From the NCBI GenBank assembly GCA_028284445.1, contig JANQRS010000012.1, positions 1-64,000 of the forward strand: a stretch of DNA of 64,000 nucleotides, written 5' to 3'. Source of the stretch: Calditrichia bacterium. GTDB taxonomy: Bacteria; Calditrichota; Calditrichia; RBG-13-44-9; J075. The number at the start of each line of letters is the position of its first letter. Positions within the stretch are counted from its first letter, which is position 1. The translations under genes and the position numbers were made by a program. Shown in pieces: positions 44,986-49,200 of this stretch. The notes below the pieces were generated by a model. That model was not told the origin of the DNA. It did not search any database and worked only from the letters and a program-made list of their open reading frames with translations.

Positions 44986-45131
44986 AGAGTCACCTTTAAT
45001 GATTTTATGTAGGAACATTGACCCTAAATTAGCAATACTGTCGAAAACAGCCTAAAAATATCCCCATTTTGGGTTATTTGCCAATTCACTTCTGACATTT
45101 ATTTTAATTCAGGACGCATGAGTATTTAGCT

Positions 45132-45346: not shown

Positions 45347-46141
45347 ATGCGCAGAATCATACACACAGTACTGCTACTGATAGGCTTTTCCGGCATGTTG
45401 CTGGCACAAAATGTCGGCGATCCGGCACCGGATTTCACGCTAACTTCGCTTGACGGAAACGCCGTATCACTATCCGATTACCAGGGCAAGGTCGTTTTCC
45501 TGTTCTTCCTCGGCTATGGCTGACCCACCTGCCGGTCGGTTGGTCCAACCGTCGAGTCAGGTATTAACCAAACGTATATGGGTGACAATTTCCAGGTCCT
45601 CGGTCTTGATGACTGGAATGGTAACATCACGCAACTTCAAGGATTTCAAACAGCTACGGGCGTAACGTTTCCGCTTCTGCGCCAGGCAAGTGCAGTCACT
45701 GCTTCATATGGCACGAGATATGACCGCGGCGTGATTGTCGATTCTGACCACAACATCGCTTACAAAGGCGCTGGACTGGTGACAACAGAAATTGGAACGA
45801 TTATCAACACCATCGACAACCTGTTAAATCCGACAGCGATTGATCTTGATGAGCCGGACCTCAATGAATTTGAATTGGCTCAAAATTTCCCTAATCCCTT
45901 CAATCCGAATACTACGATTGCCTTTACCTTACCAACAGCGCAGTCGGTTTCGGTAAAGATTTATGATATCAATGGCAAGTTCATTCGCCAGGTGCTCAAC
46001 GGCGAAATGGCAGCCGGACTTCATGAATTGAACTGGAACGGCACCGACCAAAATGGTGAGGCGGTTGCTTCCGGAACGTATATTTACGTTCTGGAAAGTG
46101 CGGATTTCAAAGATGTTAAGAAGATGGTTTTGATGAAATAA
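45347..46141 (+). CDS. Exported thioredoxin-fold selenoprotein (UxxC) with T9SS sorting domain
   Basis: A 264-residue protein read through an in-frame TGA at 45521-45523 as selenocysteine (U59). Signal peptide MRRIIHTVLLLIGFSGMLLA, then an AhpC/TlpA-type thioredoxin fold: GDPAPDFTLTSLDGNAVSL, KVVFLFFLGYG-U-P-T-C-R (redox motif U59-P-T-C62), VGPTVESGI, GFQTATGVTFPLLRQA and YDRGVIVDSDHNIAYKG. The C-terminus (about 175-264; FELAQNFPNPFNPNTTIAF and SGTYIYVLES) is a T9SS-type sorting domain. The reading frame, codon style and homology run unbroken across the TGA. The SECIS-like hairpin follows directly. Start 45347 has CGGGA upstream. Without selenium insertion only a 58-residue fragment would be made. 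Calling it two genes or a pseudogene is less likely. Confidence 0.85.
45521..45562 (+). promoter_or_regulatory. Bacterial SECIS-like element next to UGA
   Basis: Directly after the TGA, ACCTG (45527-45531) pairs with CAGGT (45558-45562) and CGGTT (45537-45541) pairs with AACCG (45547-45551), capped by the loop GGTCC (45542-45546). The apical loop starts with GG and holds the GU needed for SelB in known elements (E. coli fdhF loop: AGGUCU). The GU lies about 20 bases after the TGA, within the known range. Confidence 0.75.
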
Positions 46142-46146
46142 ACCGC

Positions 46147-46171
46147 CAGGCGGCCGTGAAACGGCCGCCTG
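46147..46171 (+). terminator. Hairpin terminator after the selenoprotein gene
   Basis: CAGGCGGCCG (46147-46156) and CGGCCGCCTG (46162-46171) form a perfect 10-bp GC-rich stem with loop TGAAA, 6 bases after the stop codon. There is no T-tract, so termination may be Rho-dependent or partial. Confidence 0.6.
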
Positions 46172-46229
46172 AAAAATCACCCGTTCGGGTCATATCGCCG
46201 GCCTTATCTTTTTCTTACCTTTTAAGGTC

Positions 46230-49200
46230 ATGCTGCCGTATTCCGTTACAGAGGTAAAATCAAATCCCCGGCATGGTCTCGGGCTGCTTCAGTACGCCCT
46301 TTTTTTCACACTCCTCTTGGTCTTACCATCCACCGCCCAGGATCAACCACTTAAATTTGAACGCTTCTCCATCGAAGACGGACTATCCTATACGTCAGTC
46401 CGGGAGATTACCCAGGACAAACAAGGCTTTCTTTGGATGATAACGCCGGACGGGGTCAACCGCTATGACGGTTACAAGTTTCATAATTACCGGCACGATC
46501 CATACGACGCCACATCCCTCACCGCCAATTCCCAAAACACGATTCACGTCGGGCATTCCGGCACGGTTTGGATCGGCAACTTCGACGGGCTTTGCCGCTA
46601 TAATCCGCTGCATGACAACTTTGTCCGCTATCAGCACGTGGATGGTGACTCTACAACACTCTGGCAAAATTACACCACGGCCATTTATGAAGATCGCGAC
46701 AGCGTTCTGTGGGTCGGCACTTCAGCGGTACTGAATCGCCTTGATAGACGAAGCGGCAAATTCAAACACTACGTGTACGACGGCGAAAACCCCTTCAGCT
46801 ATATCAATTTTGTTATAACCTCGATTATTGAGGATCCCCGGCCTGGCAGCAACCGTCTCCTGATCGGAACACGAGGCGCCGGCATGGTCATCTTTGACAA
46901 GGACAGCGAAAAATTCACCTACCTGCTTGGCCGGCACCCGAAAAAACCGCACTACCTCAGACAATATTCTGCTGACCTTATTGCCATGACAAAAAAGCTA
47001 CATGGAAGTGATCGCTACATAATCGGCCTGAGATCGTATCATGACTTCATGCAGTGGGAAGGGCATTTTACTCTCAGCGAGAAACAGACGCTGCTGATAA
47101 GCAGTTCAGCCGAAGAATTCAGCGGCCAGGCGTACGACTTCGGCTATATCACCCGTAAAGGGAGCGAGGAAATTCTGTGGCAATATCAGCCGAAGCAGGG
47201 AAGACACATGGGTGGAGTGCCAAAAAACCGTCTGCAAATCTCAACAATCACCCTGCCTGCCGGACAGTATTCCCTGCACTATAAAAGCGACGACAGCCAT
47301 TCAACTATCAAATGGAATTCCCTCCCTCCAAAGTATCCGGAATTATACGGCGTTCATATTTCGCGCTTGTCCGTGAAGGACAGCAAAGCGATAGCAAGCT
47401 TACAGCAAAGCGACTTCATGCCCGAATTGCTATCAAGCGGCGATGTATCTGTTTTGTATCATGACAACTTGTCGGGCCGTGCAAATCCCCACGAAATTTG
47501 GGTAGGGACTCGCGATAAAGGACTCAATAAATTGCGTCTGCCGCCCCTTGAGGCGTCCAAGCTATCCGGATCGCCATATTTCGATATGGAAAATTGCCAG
47601 ATAACAACCCTGCCCTATAAGACAGGCGAGCCAGGCGGTTTGCCCGGGAAGCACATTAACAGCGTGTTTGTCGATCACCGCAGCGACGTGTGGATTGGCA
47701 CACCGGCCGGCCTGACAAAGTACAGCCAGGACGACGGCCGGATAAATCACTATTCGCATGACCCGACCAATAGCGCCAGCCTGAATGCAAACAGTATTCA
47801 CCACATCATAGAAGATCATTCTCACAATCTGTGGATCGCAACACCGGCAGGCGTCAACAAATTAAACCGTCACAAACATCAGTTCTTGCATTTTGCAGCC
47901 AGTCAACAACCGGATCGACACCAGCGCCAGCTGCAAAAAAGTTCGATTCGCACGCTCTATGAAGATTTTAATGGAAATTTGTGGGTGGCTTCTGATGGGG
48001 GTGGGCTGAGCAAGCGCGACGCTGCAACCGGTCTTTTTCACCACTATCGGGGTCAATACCAGACGCCGCCTTTTTACTCGAGCGCTACGATTAAATCCAT
48101 CATTCAGTTGCCGGATGATCCCAATGGCCACCTCTGGATTGGCACCGCCGGCGACGGCCTTTGGCGCTTCGATCCCGGGAATGAGACGATTGAAAAATTT
48201 CGTTACAACCGGTACGACTCTACCACCATTGCACATAATATCATCTCGGTATTGCATGTGGATGATCAACAGCGTCTTTGGATAGGAACGGAAGGCAATG
48301 GCATAAGCTTGCTGAATGAAGACCGAAAGACATTCACTCGCTTCCCATCAAAAACTGTAAATACCGAAGAAGGCGTAGTGCCAAATCGACGGCTACGGAC
48401 CAATGAGGTTTGGGCAATCGAAAATGGCTCAAAACAAGACAGTCAATATCTTTGGTTTGGCCTGGTCGGCGGCGGCCTGAGCCGCTTTAATACCCATGAC
48501 AGCACCTTTAAGCATATCCCAATGGACCGCAACAGCAACGACGGCACCAATTCAAAAACAATTACAGACCTCTACCTGGACCGTGACGACATCCTTTGGA
48601 TTGGCACCTATAGCGGCGGACTGAATCGCTACGATAGCAAAAGTGGTACGCTTCAACACTTTACTGTGCGGGATGGTCTCAGCAATAATATGGTTACGGC
48701 CATTGAAGAGGATGATAAGGGCGCCCTCTGGATAAGTACCAGCAGCGGTCTTTCAGTTTTTGACAAATCGACACATGCGTTCAAGACCTACGATGTCAAC
48801 GACGGCCTGCAAAGTAGCCAGTTTAACATAAGCGCCTCCTTCAAACTCGCCGACGGGCGTTTGCTATTTGGCGGCATTAACGGTTTTAACTGCTTTGATC
48901 CGGACAGTATTAAAATTAATCGGGAAAAGCCCCCGGTATTATTGACGGACTTCAAAGTGCTCGACAAATCCGTTTTCACACCGGATTCGAAATTCTCCGT
49001 TGCACACAAGGCTGCATTTGAAACGAAAAACATCGACCTTCATCACAGCGACAATTTCTTTTCGTTCGAGTTTGTGGCCCTGGATTATACCAATCCTGCA
49101 CGAAATCAATATGCCTATCAACTGGAAGGCTTTGATCCCGATTGGATTTATAGTGGAGAGCGGCGCTATGCCGGCTATACCAATCTCGATCCCGGTGATT

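Follow-up and report, generated by a model that had tools for sequence, protein, structure and literature searches.

A predicted UxxC selenoprotein of the redoxin family with a type IX secretion tail, conserved among the Calditrichota

The window, a stretch of 64,000 nucleotides of DNA from a Calditrichia bacterium, contains a conserved gene whose product is very likely a redoxin selenoprotein of the UxxC type, with the type IX secretion system (T9SS) as its predicted destination. The frame, its domains, the selenocysteine machinery genes and an exchange of TGA for Cys at one place in the homologues can all be read directly from the DNA and its translation. From these features both the placing of selenocysteine in the redoxin and the export of the protein from the cytoplasm are predicted with high confidence.

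The coding sequence (45347..46141, forward strand) runs from the ATG at 45347 to the TAA at 46139-46141 as one frame of 264 residues when TGA is translated as selenocysteine (U), and the homologues G005, G025a and others align with it over the domain and have similar tails. Its sole internal stop is the TGA at 45521..45523 on the forward strand, the predicted selenocysteine codon for U59 of a UPTC motif. The second residue of UxxC, Cys62, is encoded by the TGC at 45530..45532 on the same strand and is present in all 26 rows listed for family A, as the family of this 264-residue redoxin gene is called here. The gene stands alone: the nearest gene upstream is on the minus strand, with its start at 45018, and an ORF of 1268 residues lies downstream at 46230. 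A GC-rich inverted repeat at 46148-46172, directly 3' of the stop codon, is possibly a terminator; when the gene region including this repeat was searched against Rfam, only matches below the gathering scores were returned.

The protein database entry for the gene (P0004) consists of only the 187 residues that begin at the ATG at 45578, and a plain ORF list gives the same product. The 18 codons that lead from the TGA to this ATG align with the homologues, though they lie outside the 187-residue downstream ORF. Two other database proteins, P0005 (88% identity) and P0006 (69%), likewise begin at the corresponding internal Met, which is what would be expected if their genes also carry the TGA.

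A search of 40 genomes of the phylum gave 23 matches of at least 84 bits, spread over 16 genomes, with the next match at 68.6 bits. An in-frame TGA is found in 12 of the 23 homologues (10 genomes) and is absent from the other 11 (six genomes). When all 23 were translated, the TGA proved to be the first residue of [U/C]xxC in 12 out of 12, and a Cys occupies that place in each of the 11 others. The comparison thus indicates that the TGA at the motif is not there by chance, and it places the window gene in a family that is conserved across the phylum. The preliminary description had claimed a single open frame across the TGA at these coordinates, with the TGA in place of the first Cys of UPTC and the second Cys kept, and had joined both halves into one protein. 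The sequence and its translation agree with this, the TGA/Cys distribution supports the replacement, and the two halves are united by a Redoxin/AhpC-TSA match extending across the TGA, together with a T9SS sorting domain that scores over its cut-offs. The alignment that it proposed, which looked for Cys at residue 59 in homologues, finds one in those 11 close relatives.

The TGA could also be an ordinary stop, arising from a recent nonsense mutation or a sequencing error, in which case the gene would be a pseudogene or its product would end at residue 58. The truncated database entry, holding only the 187-residue downstream ORF, is what such a stop would give, and a relative does have further stops: the copy in genome G029 (L118:3550-4480) encodes UPYC together with two in-frame TAA codons and a later TGA, and looks decayed. 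The window frame, however, is free of other stops. Another 11 homologues, 39-51% identical to the window gene, retain the TGA at this position, and elsewhere a Cys takes it. The starts of P0005 and P0006 at the matching internal Met, known from the protein alone, also count against an ordinary stop. A pseudogene or sequencing error was rejected on the conservation of the TGA and on these two starts, and is considered very improbable.

A wider scan of contigs gave 13 loci. One of these (L102), from an assembly named as Calditrichaeota, has the TGA and, as judged by eye, a T9SS-like tail; two from assemblies named as Cytophagales and Bacteroidota (L100 and L101) have Cys and T9SS-like tails, again by eye. 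Loci L103-L111 were left out of the homologue rows, and those that were viewed, L106 and L108 among them, are ResA-like Cys proteins. A masked gene of G012 (L112), with a TGA and the motif USIC, was left out as well, as was a TGA row from G045 with WUPPC in a ResA-like frame. The rows G026a and CLD3 were kept despite weakening the pattern. Genome G045 belongs to another phylum; at its locus L093 (G045:C47) the ResA-like frame carries WUPPC with a TGA at the U, and no T9SS tail was noticed.

In a maximum-likelihood tree, from which P0009 was left out, the redoxin domains of 42 rows fall into two clades, each with both Sec and Cys members. The tree requires at least six changes between Sec and Cys, of which at least four are forced by well supported branches.

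The genome from which the window comes (G000; 83 contigs totalling 8.19 Mb, with a completeness of 94.5% and a contamination of 0.58%) contains selA (538 bits), directly followed by selB (370 bits, over the cut-off), and a tRNA-Sec that scores 67.9 bits against a gathering score of 47 and has the anticodon TCA according to ARAGORN. A selD gene (372 bits) lies on contig C63 (L042), and its frame holds a TGA of its own in the motif GUAAK, which fits UxxK, the SelD motif according to Table 1 of PMC13188914. With this in-frame TGA, the SelD of the genome is itself likely to be a selenoprotein. All four genes implied by the preliminary description, selA, selB, selC (tRNA-Sec) and selD, are therefore present, including the tRNA-Sec and SelB whose absence it had named as grounds for refutation. 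The SelA, SelB, tRNA-Sec and SelD encoded in this genome would together decode UGA59 as selenocysteine.

Across the phylum, SelB scores over the cut-off in all 10 genomes with TGA homologues versus one of the six Cys-only genomes (Fisher p 0.0014, ignoring kinship), although five of these six belong to one family, so that the correlation contains few independent events. For selA the figures are eight of 10 and one of six. The exception among the Cys-only genomes is in both cases G011, which retains selA and selB. The two TGA genomes that fall short for selA are G019, with selA fragments only and SelB over the cut-off, and G025, an apparent counter-example with TGA copies, a SelB of 377 bits and no selA over the cut-off; the stretch upstream of its SelB was viewed by eye and no selA was seen. 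Two full-length selA genes (G003:C2 and G003:C278) occur in one assembly with 6% contamination.

An in-frame TGA followed by a conserved frame might also be produced by a genome-wide reassignment of the codon in this lineage, for instance to Trp or Gly. Of 29 ORFs in the window that largely do not overlap and have at least 250 residues, 10 end in TGA, which implies that the code is not reassigned, and the idea was rejected on this count. Moreover, Cys is found at the position in all 13 family A rows without a TGA, among the rows listed, and the genome has the full Sec machinery. Reassignment is thus regarded as extremely improbable.

The incorporation of selenocysteine would be directed by a predicted hairpin located just downstream of the UGA, which would act as the SECIS element. 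This predicted bacterial SECIS hairpin (45527..45562, forward strand) has an inner stem, CGGUU/AACCG, at 45537-45551, a bulged U at 45536 and an apical GGUCC at 45542-45546 that starts 18 nt after the UGA. In the SECIS of Escherichia coli fdhF, too, a GGU loop lies 18 nt after the UGA and the 5' arm contains a bulged U, but this element belongs to another gene family and has another stem sequence. The bulged U in the 5' arm of the fdhF element is important. Limits for bacterial SECIS elements given in section 5 of PMC13188914 comprise a loop of 3-9 nt with a G in the first two places, a distance of 16-37 nt from the UGA, a stem of 4-16 bp and an energy of at most -7.5 kcal/mol. The window hairpin falls within them, with the loop GUC, a spacing of 19 and -16.4 kcal/mol (opening one pair gives GGUCC at 18), as does that of fdhF.

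With the energy limit applied to the hairpin alone, these strict limits are passed by five of 12 family A TGA rows, five of seven TGA rows of the second clade and none of nine Cys rows. A looser score of our own, which looks for an unbroken stem and a loop G[GU] at 16-20 nt from the UGA, reaches its threshold of 12 in 11 of 13 family A TGA rows and in all 10 TGA rows of the second clade (21 of 23 in total), compared with none of 16 Cys rows (13 of family A and three of the second clade). The proteins P0003, P0007 and P0008, for which there is no DNA, were left out of the hairpin test. Among 9344 in-frame gene windows taken as background, 1.5% score 12 or more and 3.7% score 10 or more; fdhF itself scores only 10. 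The two TGA rows under the threshold are G019 (9) and CLD3 (0), the latter with a hairpin 23 nt from the UGA, within the published limits. Among relatives the stem bases vary on both sides while the pairing is mostly kept. Taken as a whole, the 60-nt stretch of the window gene folds no more than slightly better than shuffled sequences do (z -1.10; 21 of 200 as good).

The part of the protein that contains U59 is a Redoxin/AhpC-TSA domain (residues 23-146; 45413..45784, forward strand). Both Pfam models score above their curated cut-offs, Redoxin (PF08534) with 59.7 bits over residues 23-146 and AhpC-TSA (PF00578) with 57.4 bits over residues 23-139. An AlphaFold2 model built with 13 rows has a mean pLDDT of 80.3 and a pTM of 0.60; within residues 21-150 the blocks average 85-97, whereas residues 1-17 and 162-188 stay under 50. 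In the model, residue 59 is found between a strand (49-55) and a helix (60-77), which is the active-site place. The best Foldseek matches are a putative disulfide isomerase of Bacteroides, ResA and TlpA-like proteins, with AhpE appearing from rank 20, and the sequence matches are in line with this ResA/TlpA-like fold. The curated cut-off of the ResA model itself (NF002854) is not reached by the window protein (45.7 bits versus 170), nor is that of the redoxin_TUGYCR model NF053656 (20.6 bits versus 100). The family has YD where TlpA-like rows carry a Pro ahead of the next strand, at what we take to be the cis-Pro site of TlpA-like proteins. Once outside the cytoplasm, the U59 selenolate would attack a disulfide or a similarly oxidised group and Cys62 would then resolve the mixed bond, making the protein a selenol-based thiol-disulfide oxidoreductase.

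The same domain could instead belong to a selenium-dependent peroxidase, that is, a peroxiredoxin at the cell surface. The Redoxin/AhpC-TSA assignment, the presence of Prx-2 and AhpE among the sequence and fold matches and the YD in place of Pro are all consistent with peroxidase activity. The motif of peroxiredoxin selenoproteins is given as PxxxTxxU in PMC13188914, whereas residues 56-59 of the window protein are GYGU; the Gly three residues before U59 means that the TxxU of those selenoperoxiredoxins, and the TxxC/U of peroxiredoxin proper, is lacking. Moreover, the second Cys makes the motif UxxC, and the best fold matches are ResA/TlpA-like. A peroxidase is therefore possible but doubtful, and an oxidoreductase remains the favoured function.

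The N-terminus has the appearance of a signal peptide, MRRIIHTVLLLIGFSGMLLA/Q (45347..45406, forward strand), recognised by eye from its RR, its hydrophobic core and LLA/Q, and the homologues also have hydrophobic N-termini. The peptide would take the protein through the Sec translocon. At the other end, residues 181-261 (45887..46129, forward strand) form a T9SS type A sorting domain or FlgD_ig-like tail (PF18962, TIGR04183, PF13860), which is beta-rich in the model. The tail scores 33.9 bits with Por_Secre_tail (PF18962; cut-off 27), and the protein scores 42.6 bits with TIGR04183 (cut-off 23), which models the type A sorting domain of the T9SS. The database protein P0008 is also over the TIGR04183 cut-off. 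The genome encodes SprA on one frame of 2147 residues (586.7 and 211.9 bits), and it is likely that the tail would be handled by the T9SS, bringing the protein to the cell surface.

The higher score of FlgD_ig on the same tail (51.3 bits versus 33.9 for Por_Secre_tail) leaves some weight for a selenoprotein that stays in the periplasm, with the tail serving as a general beta-domain and not as a working T9SS signal. Some family members are indeed short, tailless and start in a lipoprotein-like manner, for example G021a, G031a and one TGA case, G026a. On the other hand, TIGR04183 is over its cut-off not only in the window protein but in all six tailed relatives tested (G017, G025a, G026b, G034 and G039 with TGA; G021b with Cys). 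SprA, besides being present in the window's genome, is over the cut-off in 15 of the 16 genomes that contain a family member; it falls short in G039, which is 72% complete and has a fragment only. Furthermore, when the window protein was compared with its own genome, all 150 matches listed, of 339 candidates, reach the tail, and among these 150 the tail behaves as a widespread, signal-like module. A periplasmic location is thus judged unlikely, and passage to the surface by way of the T9SS is preferred.

The same genome has a second gene of this kind (G000:C51; L040:1028-3040). Its product, about 670 residues long, combines LVIVD repeats and an Ig-like domain with a redoxin domain, whose motif is WUPVC, and a Por_Secre_tail; the U of WUPVC is again an in-frame TGA. 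No NCBIfam model scores over its cut-off for the redoxin part. TGA relatives of this gene are found in G001, G003, G005, G018 and G034. Together with the window gene, it brings the T9SS-tailed UGA genes in this genome to at least two besides selD.

In three genomes, G021, G026 and G025 (L080, L113 and L119), the family gene is located in a block with genes for DUF6029 and TlpA-like proteins. DUF6029 was assigned by Pfam in all three and the TlpA-like protein by Pfam in G026 and by eye in G021 and G025; the blocks of G021 and G026 additionally hold a lipoprotein-like redoxin. The DUF6029 protein, viewed by eye, is possibly a beta-barrel. The arrangement suggests a redox relay, in which the TlpA-like and DUF6029 neighbours of these relatives could pass electrons to the family protein. 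A small protein follows the family gene in G017 and G034, the one in G017 having no Pfam match.

It is probable that the phylum runs selenium redox chemistry outside the cell, with at least two families of T9SS cargo (the 264-residue UPTC protein and the WUPVC propeller-redoxin, about 670 residues long) acting beyond the outer membrane, and with Sec and Cys exchanged repeatedly as the Sec trait is gained or lost among genomes. Bacterial selenoproteins are known mostly from the cell interior or the periplasm, and the cell surface would be an unusual place for a selenium-containing redox enzyme. If the prediction holds, the cell invests selenocysteine in a protein that it exports, which raises the questions of what substrate is worth this cost and where the electrons come from, and the T9SS would have to carry a cargo bearing a selenol. 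Since the protein database cuts the gene at the UGA, a family of surface-directed selenoproteins would be easily missed.

Secretion as such is not new for selenoproteins, as putative secreted serine proteases are among those listed in PMC2398784. A literature search by titles and the openings of abstracts gave no paper on a T9SS-tailed or surface selenoprotein, or on one from the Calditrichota, and in the text of the Caldithrix abyssi paper PMC5317091 that was covered by a term search neither selenium or selenoproteins nor type IX secretion is mentioned.

As for known systems, TlpA and ResA are extracytoplasmic oxidoreductases that are membrane-anchored or periplasmic. Their structures (PDB 2ls5, 3kcm, 4nmu and 1su9) share the fold and the place of the redox motif with the window protein, but they have Cys where it has Sec. 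The (seleno)protein of NF053656, redoxin_TUGYCR, has the thioredoxin fold in common with it, and the model name gives a U in UxxCR. Closer counterparts are found in Table 1 of PMC13188914. The Prx-like thiol:disulfide oxidoreductase selenoproteins (PF00578, UxxC/UxxU) share an AhpC-TSA/redoxin domain with UxxC, and the PF00578/PF08534 domain and UxxC of the window protein put it in this Prx-like/redoxin class; the table row for them, whose representative is WP_010940744.1, mentions no T9SS tail. The selenoprotein described there as a 'Redoxin family protein', HEU0032618.1, likewise combines PF08534 with UxxC in a row that mentions no T9SS tail, and on that description it could be a relative of the window family, from the same or another subfamily. 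The best reading of the window protein is hence as a predicted surface-directed UxxC variant of the Prx-like/redoxin selenoproteins.
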